Below are positions 36,561 to 64,000 of a DNA stretch of 64,000 bases, piece after piece. The position numbers and the translations under genes were made by a program. The notes under the pieces are model-generated. The model was not told where the DNA came from and made no database searches. It was given only the letters and a program-made list of their open reading frames with translations. Every line of letters begins with the position of its first letter. Positions within the stretch are counted from its first letter, which is position 1. This stretch comes from Siphonodentalium dalli (lineage: Eukaryota > Mollusca > Scaphopoda > Gadilida > Siphonodentaliidae): assembly GCA_032622095.1 (NCBI GenBank), contig CP136062.1, positions 200,733,828 to 200,797,827 on the forward strand. The letters are read 5' to 3'.

Positions 36561-37019
36561 TGTGACCCGCCATAACAAATCCAGTCGTAAGTCGGTATTT
36601 TTTTTACCCTGTGCCAATGCATTCTCTTATATATGCGAGTCGACCATAGGTCGCCTCGCATATATAAGAGAATGCATTGGCCTAACAAATTTTTACAATT
36701 TTAATAATTTTTTCTTGTATTCTTTAACAATTTTATAATTTCGCCCATACAGAGCCCCAGACAAACATGAGCAGACGACACTCTTCTATATGCTTCTATA
36801 TATGTGTAGGGCTCCCTGCAGGGTAATGGATGTTTTTTATTTTATGTCCTAAAAATTGTAAGCAACATTTATTTTTAAAAAATGATAAAAAATTGTTAGG
36901 CCAATGCATTCTCTTATATATGCGAGGCGACCTATGGTCGACTCGCATATATAAGAGAATGCATTGGCACAGGGTGAAAAAATCCCGACTTACGACTGGA
37001 TTTGATATGGCGGGTCAAA
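36561..37019. mobile_element. TA-flanked MITE with TGTGACCCGCCATA ends and the shared hairpin, copy 1
   Basis: Long terminal inverted repeats (TGTGACCCGCCATA, then CAAATCCAGTCGTAAGTCGG) flanked by TA. Between them are the two CCAATGCATTCTCTTATATA palindromes also found in the TTAA family and a distinct core with GAGCCCCAGACAAACATGAG. Confidence 0.8.
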
Positions 37020-37239
37020 TATAGTCTTATTCCATTCTGAAAAGAAATAGGAGTGATTTATTCTTCACCAAAGGGGTTCCGTATTATAATCAGATGAGAG
37101 AAAGAGATAACCCCAAATTCATGGAAATGTCTAGCTACTAAGTTCAACAAGCAGTCTAAATTTAAAATAAAAACCCAAACATCATTATAAGTTAATGACT
37201 ACCCATACATCAGGAAGTATTCAATTATCAAAGGATTAA

Positions 37240-37468
37240 CCCTTTACCCAACAGAACGGCCCTGTGCCAATGCATTCTCTTATATATGCGAGTCGACCAT
37301 AGGCACAGAATGCATTGGCACAGGGCATAACTGTAACTATCACAATGTGGTCAAGGAGCCGGTTCCAATGATATCCATATTTGTATGGTTCTATTGAGAC
37401 AGACCGAAGATATTTTAGGCTGTTGAAGCTTTATTTGGCCGGTCTTGGCCGGTTTGTTGGGTAAAGGG
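37240..37468. mobile_element. piggyBac-like hairpin MITE, copy 5 (internally deleted)
   Basis: TTAA on both sides; 229 bp. One palindrome is reduced to a fragment and the other lost, while both termini remain, as if the hairpin pair collapsed by deletion. Confidence 0.85.
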
Positions 37469-38098
37469 TTAATCGTAGCATTGGGTTGGTCGATCTCCAT
37501 ATAAAGAGAATGTGGTTGAGACCTAATCAGATTCAAAGTACAACTCTGGATCGAACACTGTAGCCGTGAGTGCCATTATCGATAGAGCTAGCTAACGTTC
37601 TGTAATATTTGACAGAAGAAGAATTGGGTCCTTTCTTGAAGTTATGCCTCCTTGCCCAGTGGTTCCTTGCACGATATTTGATAAATTTATTCTTTTTGCC
37701 TTTCGTGCATACCCAGTCTCTTTAAAAAGCTGTCGAAAATTTTACAATATTTACGTCTCTGGATATCTCATTCATAATCAGATACTGAATTGATGGGATT
37801 CCCTCCATTTCATTGGAGAGTGGCGAAACATGCATGTGATTTCATTGGTTTATGGCATAACAGATCACTTCACAGATCAGAGGACAATTACATGTTGACA
37901 ATTTTCCCAGGCATTGTCAAACTCCACTATTATTGGAAAATGAATACAGGCGATATATCCATAATTCATTTTATTCATCGCAATGTAGGAGATATCATCT
38001 TCAAGTTTTTATCAGTCAACGATATTCATGACTGATTATTCTTTCGCATCTTCTTTTATTTATAACTATTTCTAAATACTACGATTCTCACAAACATT

Positions 38099-38200
38099 TA
38101 CTACGCCATGAATGCACTCCATATTTGGAAACGGTTTATTGCATCATGTTGGGAAGGCCGCGTCATTGTAGAAATGAAATATAATGGACACATCTAGAGA
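38099..38200. repeat. segment inverted with respect to 43376-43492
   Basis: Shared in inverse: GCACTCCATATTTGGAAACG, GTTTATTGCATCATGTTGGG, TAGAAATGAAAT, and CATCTAGAGACG at the outer end. Two copies of one repeat, exact ends unknown. Confidence 0.65.
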
Positions 38201-38204
38201 CGTA

Positions 38205-38487
38205 CAGTAATGCTCTAATTAATCGACCTCTTAACCAAAGCAGAATTATGGGTAACTTTTCAGGATTTAGTCGAAAATATGGCTTGTTGCCATTCATCGG
38301 AAAGCTCTCGGGGAGAGCTTTCCGATGAATGCAGGATTTAGTCGAAAATATGGCTTGTTGCCATTCATCGGAAAGCTCTCGGGGAGAGCTTTCCGATGAA
38401 TGCAACAAGCCATATTTTCGACTAAATCCTGAAAAGTTACCCATAATTCTGCTTTGGTTAAGAGGTCGATTAATTAGAGCATTACTG
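38205..38487. mobile_element. TA-flanked palindrome, copy 8, with duplicated centre
   Basis: The central hairpin is present twice in tandem, joined at GATGAATGCAGGATTTAGTC, so the element could fold as one long arm with two alternative tips. It ends 35 nt past the donor of channel exon 7. Confidence 0.85.
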
Positions 38488-38522
38488 TACATCGTCGGCT
38501 TTTCAAAGAGACGGGTGCATAC

Positions 38523-38682
38523 CTAGTGCCTTCTGCTGTTCCCAGCTGTAGTTGAACCACTTGCGGACTCTATCTTGGATTGACTGCGGCAGATTGATAC
38601 GCTTCATGTATCTCATAATGTCGTTTACTTTCTTTCGATGTTCATCTTGATGCTTGGTGACTGAATCAACAATGTCGCGGAT
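38523..38682 (-). CDS. CNG channel exon 7 (C-linker)
   Basis: Starts IRDIVDSVTKHQDEHRKKVN and continues to NLPQSIQDRVRKWFNYSWEQ, then QKALG. This is the helical C-linker that couples ligand binding to the gate; the NLP-x-x-x-Q-x-RV-x-W-F/Y-x-Y-x-W motif is complete. Acceptor TCAACAG, donor GTATGC, exit phase 1. A palindromic MITE ends 35 nt downstream of the donor. Confidence 0.95.
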
Positions 38683-39113
38683 CTGTTGAAAGAGAAAATC
38701 TCTGGTTATTAAAGGGAACAAGCCACTCGCAGAGGGGAAATGTAACAAAATATAACACAGTCTGTAAAAACATCACCACTAAGAAGAACATGGAGAATTC
38801 AATTCAATTCAATTTATTTATGTTAATGGATTTGTAGATATTACAGACAAGATATATATATATATATCATATAAAAATATTCAATATGACATATAATGAC
38901 AATAAATTTCATGTGAGGAATACATGTGTGTTTAGATTTTTTTTAAGTTTCCGATTGGGTGATGATTTCAGATACAGTGGCCAGGAAGTTATGGTCACGG
39001 ATGTAGATAGATATATAAACATGTTCATGAAAGGCCTGTACTTTCAGTATTATTTGGTCTATATAAAGAAACCAAGCACACAATTTACTGGACAAGAACA
39101 AAATAAATTTTAC

Positions 39114-39255
39114 CTGACCGACAAGTAGAGCAAACACGAATACACCGGAGAGCCAGTATATTGTCATGAAGACATACTCAAACACTGTCGATGGCTTTGG
39201 GTTGTTCCCGATTGAGGTGGCAGTTTTAGCAGCCAAATAGAAACATCGGATGTAT
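39114..39255 (-). CDS. CNG channel exon 6 (pore helix, filter, S6)
   Basis: The exon encodes YIRCFYLAAKTATSIGNNPK, then PSTVFEYVFMTIYWLSGVFV and FALLVGQ. SIGNNPKP is the selectivity filter. The glutamate that binds Ca2+ in CNGA subunits is replaced by asparagine, as expected for a beta-like subunit; insect CNG-like proteins have a similar IG-NPKP. The rest is S6, leading to the conserved GQ before the C-linker. Acceptor TTTCAG, donor GTAAAA. Confidence 0.95.
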
Positions 39256-39376
39256 CTGAAACAAAAAAGTGCAAGTACTCTAATATGGGATGCATGTGAA
39301 TCAGCTTGTGGGAGGGGTTCCAATTGAGTAAACCCCTAATTCACAGCCAATGAATTTTTAATTTACTTGCATTTCT

Positions 39377-39485
39377 CAGTGAGAGCTTTTCGATGAATGG
39401 CAACAAGCCATATTTCCGATTAAATCCTGAAAAATTACCCATAATTCTGCCGTGGTTAAGGAGTCAATTATTTAGGGCATAACTG
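39377..39485. mobile_element. TA-flanked palindrome, copy 9 (right half only)
   Basis: Only the half from CAGTGAGAGCTTTTCGATG to GGGCATAACTG remains, inside the 371-bp intron between channel exons 5 and 6. Confidence 0.8.
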
Positions 39486-39626
39486 TATGTTGTTAATTCA
39501 GATGTTGCTTCTCATTTCAAGAAGATAAAATACATTCTGATAACCCCAGTCTCACGCACCCCTGAATTATAGGTCTGTATTTAGTGACTAAAACATAATA
39601 GGCTGGTAATATTGTGAGTTACTCAC

Positions 39627-39749
39627 GCATTGCCCTCTCCATTGTAGACCCACGTATTTGTACCGATTCCCTCGTACACAGATGCTGCATAGTAACCACA
39701 ACCCTCGAGGTGTATGAGATACAACATGTAGAATATCGTCTTGAATATC
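39627..39749 (-). CDS. CNG channel exon 5 (S5 and pore turret)
   Basis: This exon encodes IFKTIFYMLYLIHLEGCGYY (S5), then the turret AASVYEGIGTNTWVYNGEGN. The GxGTxxWVYNGxGN-YIRC run across the next junction is diagnostic for CNG beta-type subunits. The acceptor is TCTTCAG and the donor a consensus GTGAGT; the final alanine codon is split with exon 6. Confidence 0.94.
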
Positions 39750-39928
39750 CTGAAGAGAAAAACAAAATACTAAATGGATACTCCCATCAAACGTCCTATG
39801 ACCGGTAACTTGCTGAACGTGTTATCTCCAACATTTCCTAAAGGAACTATAATGAGTATTTAGCAAGGAGGGTGTCAATATGTATATCATATGCTACTAG
39901 TAATCATAAACTCCACATGCTACACATA

Positions 39929-40389
39929 TGTGACCCGCCATATCAAATCCAGTCGTAAGTCGGGATTTTTTTACCCTGTGCCAATGCATTCTCTTATATA
40001 TGCGAGGCGACCTATATAGGTCGCCTCACATATATAAGAGAATGCATTGGCCTAACAATTTTTTACAATTATAATAATTTTTTCTTTAACAATTTTATAA
40101 TTTCACCCATACAGAGCCCCAGACAAACATGAGCAGAGAACACTCTTATATATGCTTCTATATATGTGTGGGGCTCCCTGCAGGGTAATGGATGTTTTTT
40201 ATTTTATGTCCTAAAAATTGTAAGAAACATTTATATAAAAAAAATGATAAAAAATTGTTAGGCCAATGTATTCTCTTATATATGCGAGGCGACCTATGGT
40301 CGACTCGCATATATAAGAGAATGCATTGGCACAGGGTAAACAAAATCCCGCTTTACGACTTACGACTGGATTTGATATGGCGGGTCACA
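39929..40389. mobile_element. TA-flanked MITE with TGTGACCCGCCATA ends and the shared hairpin, copy 2
   Basis: Same architecture as the copy at 36561, TA on both sides. The left palindrome has a short loop deletion. It lies in the intron between channel exons 4 and 5. Confidence 0.8.
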
Positions 40390-40727
40390 TATGGACTGGA
40401 CAAAATTTCAAGTGAAAAGTATATAAGGTAAGCTATTTCGGTTCTTGCTATTTCCATTAGTCCAAAGATACCATTCATGCACACAGTGTCAGTTTCATAT
40501 AGGAGGTAGTGTCCTTAATGACTGGTGGCCGAAAATGGTAACACATATAAATGATTCATATAAATAACTTTTTGTCTCAAGATAATAACTTCAGAGCATA
40601 TGGTACTAACATGCAGATACAACGCTGTGCTGCTTAAGAGCGCAGAAATATACAAGTCAATCAGCCTTTCATTTTTTCACAAATGAACTTTTATTTTTGA
40701 AGAATTGAAAACGGATGCTGCCATACC

Positions 40728-40746
40728 CCCCCCCCCCCCCCCCCCC
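40728..40746. repeat. poly-C run
   Basis: About 19 C. Other C/G runs are at 12628, 13105 and 34009; lengths may be unreliable. Confidence 0.8.
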
Positions 40747-40909
40747 AACATGGAAAATTGAAACACGGGCAGGACAGAACCCACATGCAAAATAATCAAA
40801 GGATAATAACTCTAAAAGGGAAGATGCGAACAGCACCAACACTTCATTTGAATTTAATCCTGTGTTATAATGATGATGATGAAAAACCTTAAGTACCAGA
40901 TTTCTTGAG

Positions 40910-41395
40910 ATCCTGTAACGATTATTGAAATCGGTTCATATTTGTTTGATTTTTCAAGCCGGATGGCCAATAATCGCGAAAAATTGACAAACTATATAAT
41001 TAAGGTCCATGACTCATGCAAAAAAATGGGGATAAACCTGGTTTGACATTAGTTACTGTGGCTATAACTTTTATACCAATGGTTCACATTTGTTCGAGTT
41101 ATCAAGCCGGAAGGACGACCAGATGGCCAACAAATGGACAGATGTAGTCAATCCAGTGTATCCCCTCCAATTCTCTTCGTGAGTGGGTGGGGGGGGGGGT
41201 ATAAAAATGTGAATGCCATTGGACCCTCTTGTGAAAGTACTGCTGATGGGAAACTTCATACCAATACCAAATTGTATTCAGATCCGATTACCCATGACTG
41301 AGATATATACCCGGCTCGACAGGCGTGGGCAGACGGACGGACAAAGTCAATCCAGCATACCTCCACCCTCTAATTTTTCTTCGGAGTATAGTTAC
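40910..41395. repeat. diverged short-period repeats with TCAAGCCGGA and GACGGACGGAC
   Basis: The segments TTCACATTTGTTCGAGTTAT / TTCATATTTGTTTGATTTTT, TCAAGCCGGA, and AGTCAATCCAG-TA occur two or three times at similar spacing. They resemble dispersed repeats common in mollusc introns. Confidence 0.5.
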
Positions 41396-41460
41396 CTCAC
41401 AGCGAAGCCACTCCTGACTGCCTGGTCACATCTCTCGAAGAACTCCCAAAAAGTCTGAAT
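41396..41460 (-). CDS. CNG channel exon 4 (S4 to S5 segment)
   Basis: A small 65 nt exon with phase 0 entry and phase 2 exit, between TTTTAG and GTAACT. It encodes IQTFWEFFERCDQAVRSGFA then VR, the segment that follows S4 in CNG channels (F-EF-R-D). It was found by searching the intron between exons 3 and 5 for the missing phase; both borders fit exactly. Confidence 0.9.
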
Positions 41461-41708
41461 CTAAAATGTAAGAAGAAATATCTATCGGTATTGACAGTAA
41501 AGTCATTTGAATGGAGATACTGTTTGTGTCGCCTAATTTTGTGAAGCTATTTAGCACTTTTAATTATCTCCATTTGTGGAAAAAAAAACTTCACTGAAAG
41601 TTTGGCGGCCATTTTCCAAAAAAAAAGGCCATTGGCCACCGACAGCACAAACAATGTTTGAATCCCCGCGACTAAACAAAACAATTAACGAACCATTTTG
41701 TTCAATTA

Positions 41709-42240
41709 TTAAAGGCACGGGTGGCGTTCGTTGCAGAAATATTCATATTTTTTCAAATCGCCATCAACAGAAGGAATATTAAAATATATATATAGTTTTG
41801 TTGATATGTCAATCATAATCAGCGCATAAATAGTATATTGTCATCAAGACGTACGATGGTGTACGTAAACAAGAGCTTGCTCGTGTTACAGAAGTTGTGC
41901 TTCTGTTTACACAAGACAGCGCAATTCTATTGGTTAATCACACACAAATGATATAAACGCTCTTTATTAGTTCCATATCAGGAAAACAGTAACAAATAAT
42001 GCTCTTTATGTTTACCATATACGGATCTAAACAAACGCCAGGTAACGTAACATTTTTTGCTTTTTTTTACATAACAATTAAAGGAAACAAAATTGACAAT
42101 AACATACTGATTATGCCATATTTCTGATTGGTGTAAGAACAAAGTCTGTCTATATTTTACTATTCTTTCTGTTTATGGCGGTTTTTGATGGAGGTGAATA
42201 TTTTAACAGCATACCCACTGCCAACGCCGCCCGTATCTAA
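41709..42240. mobile_element. TTAAAGGCACG MITE, copy 1
   Basis: About 530 bp from TTAAAGGCACGGGTGGCGTT to CAACGCCGCCCGTATCT, which are inverted. Internal direct words AACGCTCTTTATTAG and ATGCTCTTTATGTTTACCAT. Highly similar to 54687-55211. Confidence 0.8.
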
Positions 42241-42539
42241 GTGATTGTCATAATAATGATATGCAAATAAAGTTTCGAATTACAAGCTATTCGTAAGCTT
42301 CATATACACAGAAGAGAAACACAAATCGATACTTGCTACACAGTAGAGAAATCGGGGCTCTTTATCGTTACCGTATTAGGAAGAAGTAGGAGTTATCTAT
42401 CTTTATTGCCACATGCAGTGTATACAAACATTTCCAGTGAAACCATTTTGGCAAGGAATAATTACTGAGTGAGAGGGCATTTGGACACAGAACACAAGAG
42501 GCTACTCTACTGGTCCGATTGTCTAGAACGGAACAATGT

Positions 42540-42800
42540 GATTGATTAATTGGTTGGGGTTTAATGTCGCTTTTAGCAACTAAGGCCATATTACGACATT
42601 GCCAGTTTTAGTGGTGGAGGAAATCCGCACACTTGCGGCTAATCCAACAGTTATTTCAATGGCTGCTAAACTTGTAGACCATGTGCGGAAAACCACCGAC
42701 CATCGGCGAGTAACTGGCAACTAAGATAACGATTTTGAGTTACAAACATGTGGATTTGAACCCTTATTGCCAGCGCTGGGGCCGGCCAAAAGGTCAGATG
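42540..42800 (-). repeat. tRNA-derived SINE-like repeat
   Basis: On the minus strand GGGTTCAAATCC (42752-42763) matches a tRNA B box, preceded by GGCCGGCCCCAGCGCTGGC where an A box would lie. Downstream is a body with TGCGGAAAACCACCGACC-type and TTAATGTCGCTTTTAGCAAC complements, which I associate with SINEs of molluscs. No tail is obvious. Confidence 0.5.
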
Positions 42801-42930
42801 TCATATATGAGGTCAAACAGTCACTAAAATCCGATTCCAAGATAATACACGACAACCGGTTTAAACCGTTTCACTTTCAGGGCACAGCATAAAATGATGC
42901 ACCCCATTCACAGGTCCAATACGAGGCTAA

Positions 42931-43304
42931 CCCTTTACCCAACAGAACGGCCCTGTGCCAATGCATTCTCTTATATATGTGAGTCGACCATAGGTCGCCT
43001 CGCATATATAAGAGAATGCATTTGCTTAACACATTAAAAATTATTTTTAAAAATGGTAAAAAGTGTTAAAAAAAGATTTTTTTGAGGCCAATGCATTCTC
43101 TTATACATGCGAGGCGACCTATGGTCGACTCGCATATATAAGAGAATGCATTGGCACAGGGCATAACTGTAACCATCACAATGTGGTCAATGAGCCGGTT
43201 CCAATGATACCCATATTTGTATGGTTCTATTGAGACAGACCCAAGATATTTTAGGCTGTTGAAGCTTTATTTGGCCGGTTTTGGCCGGTTTGTTGGGTAA
43301 AGGG
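42931..43304. mobile_element. piggyBac-like hairpin MITE, copy 6 (CTAA target)
   Basis: Both flanks read CTAA instead of TTAA, so this looks like a true duplication of a variant target. Same interior as copy 4. Confidence 0.8.
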
Positions 43305-43375
43305 CTAAAGAGACAAGCAATATGGTCAGCAGTCTCTTTAAAAAGACGACGATAATCCTAACGGATGTATATAGG

Positions 43376-43492
43376 CTACGTCTCTAGATGATCCACTAAA
43401 TTTCATTTCTACAAGTACTGGCTAATAGCGTCATACCCAACATGACGGAATAAACCATTTCCAAACATGGAGTGCATTCCTGGCATAGTAAC
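43376..43492. repeat. segment inverted with respect to 38099-38200
   Basis: Begins CTACGTCTCTAGATGATCC; see partner. A nearby CAGTCTCTTTAAAAAG word also recurs near 37708. Confidence 0.65.
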
Positions 43493-43732
43493 TATAGAAC
43501 TACCCTTCAATTAGTATTTAGTGAAAAAAAGGTTAATTGTCAGAAAGGGTAAGATATGTCGATAAACACGATATACAAGGTATATATATAAATAACTTGC
43601 CATTATAGGGTATATAAAGCGGGGATAATATTACCAATAATAACAATTTAGTAGCTGCTTTCATTTTTACTATATTATAAGTCAGATATACGCTCTTTAT
43701 TTTTACCATATCTGGGAAAAATACACAATTAA

Positions 43733-44017
43733 CCCTTTACCCAACAAAACGGCCAAAACCGGCCAAATAAAGCTTCAACAGCCTAAAATATCTTCGGTCT
43801 GTCTCAATAGAACCATACAAATATGGATATCATTGGTCGACTCGCATATATAAGAGAATGAATTGGCCTAAAACCATTTTTTCTTACATTCTTTAACAAT
43901 TTTATAATTTTTAATGTGTTAAGCCAATGCATTCTCTTATATATGCGAGGCGACCTATGGTCGACTCGCATATATAAGAGAATGCATTGGCACAGGGCCG
44001 TTCTGTTGGGTAAAGGG
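43733..44017. mobile_element. piggyBac-like hairpin MITE, copy 7 (deleted left hairpin)
   Basis: TTAA on both sides. The left palindrome has lost its first arm, leaving GTCGACTCGCATATATAAG only. Confidence 0.85.
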
Positions 44018-45120
44018 TTAATGCTCTTTATTGATTCATATTAGATTTGTCTGAATTCTTACTTGACTGAGTATTTCTGTCCCATATAATGTGCGTGTGA
44101 ATTTTAAGTATTTCAGGTAGCCTATTTGTGAAATTATTTGGATATGACACTATTAGCCAGCATTACTTGGTATAATTTGGGGCTTTAAACCACCAGAACT
44201 GGTGGTTAATATCAGCTACTTTCAACTTTGCACACAATTTAGTGAGATCATATGACATAATTATCCTGATCATATATATTTCACGGATTCGAACGAGTCT
44301 GACTGACTATTATTTCTGGTGCTTACTCATTGTAAAATTACATTTGAGACAGTAAAATGTTATGGGAAGTCCATTTGGTACTCTATGTCAATCTAGTTAC
44401 TATAATACTCTAGGTCTTGAGAAAAGATTGCCAGGGACCTGTGTAGTGGTAGGCATATATATAGTCCAACAATTCCTTGAACTGGTTTAAAGTTTCATTT
44501 GGTATAGCCTATTCCACATTGGTCTAATTCTATTAAATGTGTAAACAACTATTTTCTGACATCTTTTATTATTTCTGTGTTCCATCATAATTTCATATGA
44601 ATGATGTCGGCATCTTTTTGCTGCATGTCGCATCAGCGAATAGCTTTTCGTTTTTGATATTGGAATAACGATCTTTGTGTTTACCATAGTAGGAATAGCC
44701 ATACAGGAACGCTCTTTATTGTTTCGGGCTGAAAAAATATAATGTTTTGTATAGCGGTATATGACCTAACTATTTTTTTCAACAGCATATCACGTTTGTA
44801 TAAAAGTATTGTTAGATATTTGTCGACGAACCGGCAAGACATTTGTGTGTTTGAGTAATTATTGAAATAGATATATAGCCTACTAAGTAGTTCAGTTTAT
44901 CCAATACTGAGATTGTCGTTGACAGATTTTGAGAGAATACGTTTTGAAATACCAGGACATTTTGGCAAAACGTTCGCCCGACCCTTAACTTTAACAGAGA
45001 AAATCGGTGAGATCTCAAGTGACCAATTCAGCATTATTATGCTCGGCCTATGTAGTTCTGGCTTACTTCTCCGTCCGTACGAGCATATCGCCCTGTAACT
45101 CGGGTTTGGATAATCAAGTT
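44018..45120. other. intron sequence, no exon seen
   Basis: Contains isolated GCTCTTTAT words (44023, 44710) like those in the TTAAAGGCACG family, which suggests decayed copies. Nothing else recognised. Confidence 0.4.
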
Positions 45121-49429: not shown

Positions 49430-50010
49430 CTGATACCAACTTTGAAGATATGGTCTCTCATGAGGATTAATTAAAATACCTGTATGGTCCCAGGTCCCAT
49501 GAGGGTCAATTAAAATATGGTCACATCCAGAGAGGGTTAATTGAAATATGGTCAGATTAGGGTAAATTGAAATATGGTCACATCATGGTTAAATAAAATA
49601 TGGTCCCATGAGGATTAATTAAAATGTGGTCAAATGAGGATTAATATAAATATGGCCCCACAATGGTTAATAAAAATATGGTCCCATAACTTATGAGGGT
49701 TAATTAGAATATGGTCTCATGATGGTTAATACAAATATGGACCAATGGGGGTTAATTGAAATATGGTCCCATGAAGGTCAGCTAAAGTATGGTAACATGA
49801 TGGTTAATGAAAGTTAAAATATGGTCCCATTACGAGGGTTAATTAAAATTAAAATATGGTGTCATCAGTGTTGATTAAACTTAGGTCCCATGGGGTTAAA
49901 CAAAATATAGTTCCATGAGGGTCAATTAAAATATGTTCCAATGAGGATTAATTAATATACCCCCCCCCCATGATCAATTAAAACATGGTCACAGGAGGGT
50001 TAATTTATTA
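49430..50010. repeat. minisatellite, about 25-bp degenerate unit
   Basis: About twenty units of the type AATATGGTCCCATGAGGGTT followed by AATTA, with many single-base differences. No coding meaning is seen. Confidence 0.9.
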
Positions 50011-51112: not shown

Positions 51113-51372
51113 CTTGAACTTCCGGGATTTCACGTAATTCTTGATAGTCTCTTTAAGACTCTTCTCAAGTACCCCATGGTGTACAAATCTGATCCGTGTC
51201 TGGGCCAGAATAATATCCATCAAGTAGAGTCCATCACTCAAGTAGTCGAGGGTCAACCAGATGTGGACGTTACTAGGTTTCTGGTATGGGAAGAAACCAC
51301 GTAACGGGATCGATACAGCGTTGTAAACGAACGCCAAGGTCACCAGCGCCAACCAAACTATGTAGAGCTTAC
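51113..51372 (-). CDS. CNG channel exon 2 (S1 and S2)
   Basis: The exon encodes IVWLALVTLAFVYNAVSIPL (S1), the loop with the FPYQKPSNVHIWL motif, and S2 (LDYLSDGLYLMDIILAQTRI), ending YVKSRKFK before a GTATAT donor. The FPYQ...N.H.WL.DY...YL.DI pattern is specific to CNG beta-type channels. The exon begins GT AAG CTC: the acceptor TTTTTGTAG is followed directly by GTAAGC. The same composite site is repeated five more times upstream to 51529, so the acceptor used is inferred from protein homology. Confidence 0.93.
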
Positions 51373-51545
51373 CTACAAAAACAATCAAACTATATATGTA
51401 GAGCTTACCTACAAAAACAACCAAACTATATAGAGCTTACCTACAAAAACAACCAAACTATGTAGAGCTTACCTACAAAAACAACCAAACTATGTAGCGC
51501 TTACCTACAAAAACAATCAGCTTACCTACAAAAACAATCATGTGT
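51361..51545. repeat. 32-bp tandem repeat across the exon 2 acceptor
   Basis: On the minus strand each unit contains TTGTTTTTGTAG|GTAAGCTC. Six junctions end at 51371, 51407, 51439, 51471, 51503 and 51524 on the plus strand. Each unit equals the first 22 bases of exon 2 plus the acceptor tract before it. Confidence 0.92.
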
Positions 51546-51753
51546 ATACTCTGATTATGGCTCAGCTGATCGAATACGCTTTGTTGTGTTGATTTCGATA
51601 TAACCAGGATCTCGATAAGTTGACACTTTATATAAAATATTTTATGTACGACATGCACATTCCAATTTATGTACAGTCTATATTACCAGTATGAGGGTCA
51701 GAAGTAAAATTACATTGAACAGATAAAGGTATCAACTGACATGGCACATATAT

Positions 51754-55450: not shown

Positions 55451-55832
55451 CCCTTTACCCAACAAAACGGCCAAATAAAGCTTCAACAGCCTAAAATATC
55501 TTCGGTCTGTCTCAATAGAACCATACACATATGGATATCATTGGAACCGGCTCTTTGACCACATTGTGATAGTTACAGTTATGCCCTTTGCCAATGCATT
55601 CTCTTATATATGCGAGTCGACCATAGGTCGCCTCGCATATATAAGAGAATGCATTGGCCTAAAAAAAATCTTTTTTTAACACTTTTTATCATTTGTTCTT
55701 ACATTCTTTAACAATTTTATAATTTTTAATGTGTTAAGCCAATGCACTCTCTTATATATGCGAGGCGACCTATGGTCGACTCGCATATATAAGAGAATGC
55801 ATTGGCACAGAGTCCTTCTGTTGTGTAAAGGG
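55451..55832. mobile_element. piggyBac-like hairpin MITE, copy 8
   Basis: TTAA on both sides (55447-55450, 55833-55836). The right TTAA is at the same time the first four bases of an adjacent TTAAAGGTACTC element. Confidence 0.85.
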
Positions 55833-61916: not shown

Positions 61917-64000
61917 AGCTATAGTCCAAACATCTGAAGAGACGGTTTAGAGAGTAAATTGGTGACAAATTGGTTCCTGACCCTGTTCAAGTTGAATGTT
62001 GATATTACTATTGCCATTTAATCGCACTGTATGTGTAATGGTATTGGAGATCTAGATTAATGCTCCCAGAAGCGTTACCTGCATTATGTTTTTTATCTGG
62101 TGATGACGACAGCGAATTGACACCTAAAATAAAGAAGCGTGTACCTGTATCGTTATTATCTATTATTATCTATAACGCAACTGCCATTTCATCTTGCGTT
62201 TATACCAAATAGTCAAGACCATGCATTTCATGATGGTCACACTGACGGTAACGTAAACCATCGTTACACGACTGTAAATAAAATAATTATAAGCGGATAA
62301 ATTATATTTGACCAATCAGCGATTGAGTCCGCCGTTGGTTGCATTGAAAATTACGACGCCATCTTTGTCGATACTAATTTGGATATCCGTGTTTTCCAAC
62401 AATTATTTTGTTGGTAAATAATTATTTACTGACCTTGTGATTTGTGGACTGCTGTTGGAAATTTATTCACCATTATGGTGTAAATATTACTAATCATTCC
62501 AAAGAATCTTTCATAAATTTACAAATGTTTTTATGCATATAAGTATGCGAGGAAGAATTCTGAGAGGTAAGAAGAGGATTCGCCATCAAGTGATAGATTT
62601 GAAACGATCTCCTCGAGATTATGACAGCTTCTTTCATTTGCTTTACATTCATTACATTTTTTCCCCACATTTATATAGACGTGAAAAATATGTTCTTTTG
62701 TGTTATTCAGGTGGAAGCGGGAAGGGATGAGTGATAGAAAAGTCAGTCTCGGTGAAGAATGAATTCCAGTTTGTGATTGAAAATTATATACAAACCAGAT
62801 GAAAATTAAGAACAAAACACGTCGGTACCTCAAAACAAGCAATGTTCACTGTTTATTACACCGGATAAGTTTATAATACAATGTTTTAGAGCTTCCTCTT
62901 TCAAATGGTATATAATATGGCATATCTTTTATATATGTGATCTGGGGGTTCGAAAATTAAGTGGGCCTTTAAGGCAAATATCGAGTGTAAATAACAGGCA
63001 ATTACATAGTTCTCGTTACCCATGCAGTAAACAGCGGGCAAATACATCTTACAAGTAGTATGTCATTATAGCCTAGCACATTATACCTTCGACTAAGATG
63101 TCATTTTAGCCCAGCACATTATACCCTCGACTACAGATTTCATTATAGCCCAGCACATTATACCCTCGACTACAGATTTTCTGAACAAATTGCCAAGCAA
63201 ATTTGCGAGCGTGTTAACGTATCTTAAGTTGGTGTCAAATGGGATAATATGCTAGTTAGGGGATAAACGTACATGTGGTGAGTTGGTTATTCGGAGATTA
63301 GAGCATGAAACAGTTTGTGAATGAGCCGGCTTGTCGGTGAAATTAAGCATAAAAACACGTCGGCACCTCAACACACCCGCTTGTCGGCGAATTCACAAAT
63401 TGTTTTCATGCTCGAATCCAAGAATATACAACGAAACAGAGTACGTTTATCACCATTGTAATTAAATCCACCAACAGATTTAAAATAAACTTCACGAAAA
63501 ACACTTGTTATGGACATCACATGGATTGATGTGAGATATACTTTTTGCGGTGAGCAACTCTCTGGGTATGTTACATGGGGTTAATCGTAACAGCGCCAGA
63601 ACATCTTCCTGTTAACCGCATCTATAGAAAACAACGTTACGTTTTACTCGATTACGCGTCTCATGGCAGCACAGTTGCGTATTTTACGCGCGCTGCCAAT
63701 GACACCGTGCTCCGTTCAGAATGTTTATTGCGATCAGTGACCGATGATTGGTGAATCGAAAACTAAAATTAACAGCCCTCGGCTAACCATAATATGCAAA
63801 TATTCAAATTGAAATACAATTGATAATAATAACTGATAAACGGGTAGAAGATCATACTAACTAAATTTTGTAAGATAGTCCACGAATATTTCAAATCCAC
63901 CAATAGATTCAATATGAGACTATGAGTTCATAGTGAATACATGTCATATGATTTAATGTTACATCTTTGTATCCGAGTCCACCTATAACTGCTCAAATCC
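61917..64000. other. no gene recognised; short repeats
   Basis: A frame near 62533-62640 on the minus strand (NLEEIVSNLSLDGESSSYLS) and a GTAAGA donor-like site on the plus strand at 62569 are noted but not supported. An inverted pair GAGCATGAAACAGTTTGTGA / TCACAAATTGTTTTCATGCTC lies at 63301-63413. Confidence 0.4.
63063..63180. repeat. 40-bp tandem repeat, three units
   Basis: Units contain CATTATAGCCCAGCACATTA and TACCCTCGACTACAGATTT; the first unit is most diverged. Confidence 0.88.

Follow-up and report, generated by a model that had tools for sequence, protein, structure and literature searches.

On the minus strand of the window, the whole 64,000-nt stretch of Siphonodentalium dalli DNA analyzed here, the start of a cyclic-nucleotide-gated channel exon is preceded by a tandem array of six exact TTTTTGTAG|GTAAGC composite acceptor-donor sites, named sites S1 to S6 in transcript order. 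The structure is true and unusual, and its origin is ordinary. The extra copies are most likely a recent copying accident that is removed by splicing. We favor, with moderate confidence, the reading that the array is in the main a tolerated tandem duplication and no dedicated device, with the productive mRNA made through site S6.

A search of the window for TTTTTGTAGGTAAGC with up to two mismatches gave six matches, each of them exact and located on the minus strand between 51367 and 51534. None of 100 dinucleotide shuffles of the window reached six such matches (mean 0.17, maximum 2). Counted outwards from site S6, the site spacings are 36, 32, 32, 32, and 21 nt. Tandem Repeats Finder reports a repeat of period 32 with 5.1 copies at 51350-51516 and another of period 21 with 2.0 copies (100%) at 51499-51540. 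Two repeat units are apparent, one of 21 nt (-15 to +6) and one of 32 nt (-9 to +23), and each unit contains AGGT in acceptor-like and donor-like surroundings, as a dual-specific tandem repeat does. The first-pass annotation had described six sites with these spacings, each a composite acceptor and donor made of an acceptor tract and the first bases of the exon. The array is real, given six exact minus-strand copies that no shuffle equals; the spacings are as described, the sequence of the repeats bears out the composition of the unit, and the composite nature of the sites is supported. Table 1 collects the features discussed below.

Table 1. Coordinates, in the window, of the channel gene, its probable upstream exon, and the array.
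Feature	Position	Strand	Remarks
Probable end of upstream exon	51687..51735	-	LIPLSVQCNFTSDPHT plus first base of a Gly codon; acceptor CAG|TTG weak, start uncertain
Native donor CTG|GTAATA, first base	51686	-	Weak, matrix score 4.15; conditional on the upstream exon
Intron containing the array	51373..51686	-	314 nt if spliced to site S6
Acceptor tract of site S1	51526..51534	-	TTTTTGTAGGTAAGC match; exon-side first base 51525; TGAT at -13
Unit U1	51505..51525	-	21 nt; in frame, stop-free
Acceptor tract of site S2	51505..51513	-	TTTTTGTAGGTAAGC match; exon-side first base 51504; CTGAT at -13
Unit U2	51473..51504	-	32 nt; in-frame TAG at end
Acceptor tract of site S3	51473..51481	-	TTTTTGTAGGTAAGC match; exon-side first base 51472; AG-free stretch without A
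Unit U3	51441..51472	-	32 nt; in-frame TAG at end; first 23 nt shared with the start of the coding exon
Acceptor tract of site S4	51441..51449	-	TTTTTGTAGGTAAGC match; exon-side first base 51440; AG-free stretch without A
Unit U4	51409..51440	-	32 nt; in-frame TAG at end
Acceptor tract of site S5	51409..51417	-	TTTTTGTAGGTAAGC match; exon-side first base 51408; AG-free stretch without A; use would add 12 residues in frame
Unit U5	51373..51408	-	36 nt; in frame, stop-free; would add GKLYIYSLIVFV
Acceptor tract of site S6, start of conserved coding exon	51373..51381	-	TTTTTGTAGGTAAGC match; exon-side first base 51372; TTGAT at -13; product colinear with CNGB chains
Coding exon, CNGB-type	51113..51372	-	260 nt; channel S1 to S3; begins GTAAGC; donor AAG|GTATAT
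Further exons, same gene	46979-46893, 41460-41396, 39749-39627, 39255-39114, 38682-38523	-	
Further exons, same gene	35593-35496, 34857-34774, 28764-28646, 27791-27638	-	3' limit of last exon provisional

The gene that carries the array is, judged by its predicted protein, a CNGB1/CNGB3-type cyclic-nucleotide-gated channel gene. The 86-residue piece encoded after site S6 has its best match in a CNGB1 chain (3.9e-21). Segments of CNGB1 and CNGB3 served as queries to locate the other exons on the same strand, apart from the short S4 exon, which was found separately. Eleven exons join in frame into 447 residues with 0 stops, and all 10 introns between them have AG/GT borders. The joined protein contains Ion_trans (3.6e-22) and cNMP_binding (9.3e-16) domains; compared with solved chains, it matches CNGB1 at 4.4e-142, CNGB3 at 1.1e-130, and CNGA3 at 4.7e-95. 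It thus combines ion-channel and cyclic-nucleotide-binding domains with CNGB chains as its nearest relatives, and the earlier placement of the array in a channel gene, just at channel S1, is supported by this CNGB-type match. The gene looks intact over the 11 exons read, from 51735 to 27638. More 5' exons are expected upstream of 51735 because the short upstream exon has no in-frame ATG and an uncertain start, and for the same reason the label of exon 2 given to the channel exon is unsupported. The next intron of the gene holds a 26-bp minisatellite of 18.7 copies (window 49493-50005).

The upstream exon was sought in the window plus 49 kb, an area in which 5,000 bases are N and would hide any exon lying there. 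A narrow motif gave poor or no candidates (one weak hit within the window, none in a second search, and one weak hit when 49 kb were added to the window), and a relaxed motif gave five. Scored against a CNGB3 16-mer, the GT at 51686 ranked first among 1447 open GT candidates with 32, the next candidate reaching 14 and the mean being -16.6 (sd 8.7). The stretch TSDPHTGKLYIVW aligns gap-free to SIDPLTNLMYVLW of solved CNGB1, with the upstream exon's first 10 residues outside the alignment. Its last codons, joined at site S6, give TSDPHTGKLYIVWL, which aligns gap-free to CNGB1 SIDPLTNLMYVLWL. With a CNGB1 12-mer, position 95224 scored 28, 104399 scored 14, and 51686 scored 11, level with 57303; this query is imperfect, since solved CNGB1 has other letters at two of its places. 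An upstream exon at 95224 was set aside on account of its donor (GTCTTT), its position 44 kb upstream, and the colinearity of CNGB1 letters through the last residues of the exon at 51686, the exon for which colinearity with solved CNGB1 was examined. The acceptor of the upstream exon scores -2.83 on the rough matrix used here, and that of the last exon, taken as true, scores -2.81. The intron before the channel S1-S3 exon is probably 314 nt long. Four CNG paralogue loci served solely to view the sequence preceding channel S1 and have no gene models of their own. The S1-region exon of a CNG-type gene was matched twice with equal score, at C5:50139295-50139459 and C5:28012984-28013148, 22 Mb apart; this pair appears to be a duplicated exon or gene piece.

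The six sites differ in what they would produce. Only site S6 would give a product that follows the solved CNGB chains colinearly and carries no insert, and the five printed CNGB-chain alignments are all gap-free at its junction. Sites S1 to S4, joined from the upstream exon, meet a stop, and site S5 adds 12 residues, GKLYIYSLIVFV, in frame. Each 32-nt unit read in the upstream exon's frame ends in TAG, so the earlier suggestion that 32-nt micro-exons would shift the frame is wrong in detail: such an exon would end the protein. Enumeration over the six composite sites gave 16 products at a minimum intron length of 40, 50, or 60 nt and 10 products at 70 nt; at each minimum length, four are stop-free (+0, +7, +12, and +19 residues). 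The distances are 153 nt from S1 to S6, 132 nt from S2 to S6, and 64 nt from S2 to S4. By sequence, site S5 could serve as an alternative acceptor, the intron could be removed stepwise (S1 to S6 or S2 to S6), and an intron spanning a whole number of units, such as the 64 nt from S2 to S4, is also possible.

Splice signals were scored with rough human matrices drawn from general knowledge, not with the MaxEntScan used in PMC6224609. On the donor matrix, the native CTG|GTAATA scores 4.15, the composite TAG|GTAAGC 9.74, and the CTG|GTAAGC that is recreated by joining the upstream exon to any of the six sites 9.97. Nine native donors, the S4-exon donor being left out, range from 4.15 to 10.78, and the recreated donor outscores eight of these nine on this rough human matrix, which is not MaxEntScan. 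Among the acceptors, sites S3 to S5 score 4.49, site S6 3.66, site S2 1.88, and site S1 1.06. Sites S1, S2, and S6 keep TGAT, with the A at -13. At sites S3, S4, and S5, the interval from the previous AG to the site's own AG is devoid of adenosine. This pattern fits the makeup of the 32-nt unit, in which exon TTTGGTTG runs straight into the tract at the point occupied in the intron by TGATTG. Among units U2 to U5, TTTGATTG is present only in the last one. The acceptor-matrix ranking and the branch-adenosine argument contradict each other. A branch point at -13 is closer than usual in animals; given the looseness of animal branch sites, the true ones may be placed elsewhere. By the principle of first-AG scanning, branch points located before site S1 would favor S1 over S6. 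An intron RNA fold that hides or exposes the acceptors was rejected (z-score 0.26; 62 of 100 shuffles gave a fold at least as stable).

The repeats also speak to the age and origin of the array. Units U2 and U3 differ at 1 of 32 bases, as do U3 and U4, and U2 and U4 differ at 2 of 32; the coding exon's first 23 bases are identical to those of U3. The near-identity of U2 to U4 and the bases shared between U3 and the exon argue for a young duplication across the intron-exon border, and the middle copies look young. In the genome, the 428-bp stretch 51373-51800 matches only itself; an origin from a dispersed repeat or mobile element was rejected because this stretch has no other genome match at the search sensitivity used. 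The history we propose starts from a single acceptor before an exon beginning with GTAAGC, which would have been tandemly duplicated as 21-nt and 32-nt units, the latter several times, the order of these events being itself reconstructed. The outcome would be five extra acceptor-donor sites within a short intron of an apparently intact CNGB-type gene. The productive mRNA would very probably consist of the upstream exon joined to site S6, because only this site gives the conserved protein without an insert. The likeliest route to it would go straight to S6, drawing on the branch candidate TTTGAT, which among U2 to U5 is found only in the last unit. Some use of S1 or S2 might perhaps be repaired as well, the recreated CTG|GTAAGC being re-spliced to S6.

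Such an arrangement is rare within its genome, though not the sole one. In the 2.23-Gb genome of nine contigs, TTTTTGTAGGTAAG occurs 14 times, six of them in the array; with its letters reversed, it occurs 49 times. Paired TTTTNYAGGTAAG sites 6-36 nt apart amount to 64 pairs at three places (the reversed pattern gives 6), with 5 pairs in the array, 58 in a minisatellite at C4:12938677-12941394, and 1 at C4:54907098. At 37-67 nt apart, there are 43 pairs at two places, 4 in the array and 39 in the same minisatellite, and the reversed control gives 2. Single TTTTNYAGGTAAG sites number 670 in the genome and 1555 when reversed; since the reversed control preserves base counts only, depletion is not claimed. 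The molluscan haemocyanin domain PF14830 gave no match in this genome and equally none in the control genomes, and its absence carries no weight on the taxon.

Several of these loci have features of their own. The C4:12938677-12941394 minisatellite has a 22-bp unit built around TTTTATAGGTAAGATGAGACCA; strict TTTTNYAGGTAAG sites number 71 in 5 kb there, and AGGTAAG occurs 91 times. At C4:54907098, on the minus strand, 30-bp units of GTAAGTTCCCACCAGGAATTCATTTTATAG lie shortly after CAG|ACCAGTGCTGTCATCTGCTTAG|GTGAGT, a possible micro-exon, so that this may be a second composite array. No coding exon was recognized beside either locus, only open frames of at least 60 codons. At C2:127340487-127341849, four TTTTCTAGGTAAG sites stand in a repeat with spacings of 323, 344, and 683 bp; the other strand of this repeat reads like what we take to be degenerate C2H2 zinc fingers. 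Recurring translated stretches such as ANAFSYICESTIGRLAYIRECIG are found on both strands at window 36796-44044 and 55479-55679 and represent a dispersed repeat, which is also present at both C4 loci. The window further contains a 71-bp unit in two copies that are 100% alike (38261-38404), itself containing an inverted repeat (CATTCATCGGAAAGCTCTC / GAGAGCTTTCCGATGAATG), and a 39-bp unit in 3.1 copies with 92% matches (63060-63177).

The reading of a tolerated duplication spliced through S6 faces several objections. The acceptor matrix puts S3-S5 (4.49) above S6 (3.66), first-AG scanning from branch points before S1 favors S1, and a branch point at -13 is unusually near for animals, whose loose branch sites may lie elsewhere. 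The placement of the upstream exon depends mainly on one CNGB3 16-mer, together with a short stretch of colinearity; the exon has a weak acceptor (-2.83), and the CNGB1 12-mer prefers two other places. A two-step route is, in our view, possible but doubtful. Here, the first acceptor, S1 (or S2), would usually be taken, and the recreated CTG|GTAAGC would then be spliced to S6 to give the same mRNA. S1 is the first composite site past the unduplicated part of the intron, S1 and S2 both retain a branch candidate, their distances to S6 (153 and 132 nt) are workable intron lengths, and the recreated donor, at 9.97 against 4.15 for the native one, exceeds eight of nine native donors, although on a human matrix taken from general knowledge. 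The available portions of the literature weigh against this route: the intron is short, and most knowledge of ratchet points comes from long ones (PMC8605326; but compare PMC10156609), and in human cells re-splicing at junctions of this kind is repressed by the exon junction complex (PMC6224609). In a broader form, which we hold just as tentatively, the array would correct itself, with any of S1 to S4 chosen and its stronger-than-native donor re-spliced to S6 or, from some sites, to S5. The first-pass annotation had taken juxtaposed AG|GT as the signature of recursive splicing through zero-length exons. Such juxtaposition is insufficient alone, given that a donor is re-formed at the upstream junction of 3.6% of human exons (PMC6224609, as far as the available text goes), and the zero-length-exon version is weakened by an intron that is probably 314 nt, where the accessible parts of PMC8605326 place the phenomenon best in long introns and those of PMC10156609 report a wider size range.

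The remaining explanations are far less probable. Purposeful alternative isoforms, in which S5 or U1 as a 21-nt exon would place 12, 7, or 19 residues before channel S1, are quite improbable. The four stop-free products (+0, +7, +12, +19) among 16 (minimum 40-60 nt) or 10 (70 nt) would allow them; nevertheless, the AG-free stretch of S5 has no adenosine, the five printed CNGB chains have no insert at this place, and it is unremarkable that two of five units are multiples of three. Very unlikely, too, is an array of poison sites that would send part of the transcripts to stops and decay, its copy number tuning the channel dose. Stops do follow the use of S1 to S4 and occur in every enumerated product containing U2, U3, or U4; against this, there is no sign of regulation, and the middle copies appear young. 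Least plausible is an assembly artifact or a rare broken allele: the array is known from one assembly, but its span is about 170 bp, no second copy of the stretch was found at the search sensitivity used, and the 11 exons read are intact.

Published precedents exist both for dual-specific AGGT sites in tandem and for duplicated borders between intron and exon; the array adds a variant of that kind at one exon start. Judged from the available portions of the papers cited in this paragraph, the closest relatives are the tandem dual-specific AGGT splice sites of the human genes UBC and VCX3A (Duan et al. 2024, PMC10809524), where, likewise, each unit of a tandem repeat has an AG|GT usable as acceptor or donor and copy number is expected to vary. 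The UBC units are 228 nt, coding, and a multiple of three, whereas those of the array are 21-36 nt, three of five are not multiples of three, and they lie at the border of one existing intron; site usage in UBC was demonstrated by RT-PCR, and the array is known here from sequence alone (PMC10809524). The potato RdRp gene has a duplicated intron-exon border in which a cryptic GTAAG became a donor (Ma et al. 2016, PMC4974935). There, too, the duplicated segment took in the exon start along with branch site, tract, and acceptor, with GTAAG as a potential donor; however, a single larger duplication created a new intron and inserted exon sequence, whereas the array is made up of multiple short copies, none of which has to contribute sequence to the main product. 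Fission yeast has 24-bp AGGT arrays with an intron across two or four units (Zhu and Niu 2013, as cited in PMC4974935), also several short tandem copies, but these segments are described as exonic, whereas the array multiplies the acceptor of an intron that already existed. Donor-recreating exons (RS-exons), the 3.6% of human exons mentioned above, resemble the coding exon, which begins with GTAAGC and recreates a donor at its junction, although their definition involves one such start per exon and the array has six in succession (Blazquez et al. 2018, PMC6224609). Ratchet points or zero-nucleotide exons of Drosophila share the donor placed directly after the acceptor, yet long introns are their main setting and their motifs are well conserved (Joseph et al. 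2021, PMC8605326), unlike a young tandem array in an intron that is not long (314 nt, if the upstream exon is right). Zero-length-exon recursive splicing has been reported across a wider range of intron sizes (PMC10156609). The word "tandem" is absent from the available portion of a 2026 preprint on recursive splice features (PMC13105047). Among the matches listed, mostly from non-subscription literature, no title or abstract opening describes a short acceptor-donor array at one exon start.

The consequences depend on how the sites are used. If only S6 is used, five good upstream decoys are passed over, which would bear on first-AG scanning. If the copies funnel into one mRNA, the array would be a natural experiment on acceptor choice, in which the last nine bases are identical and position and branch adenosine differ, and it would test whether recursive splicing buffers repeat expansion at exon borders. 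The segment from S1 to S6, if used, would be an intron gained by tandem duplication. Should the array correct itself, a frame-breaking copying accident would be repaired at the RNA level, and its copy number would be free to drift.
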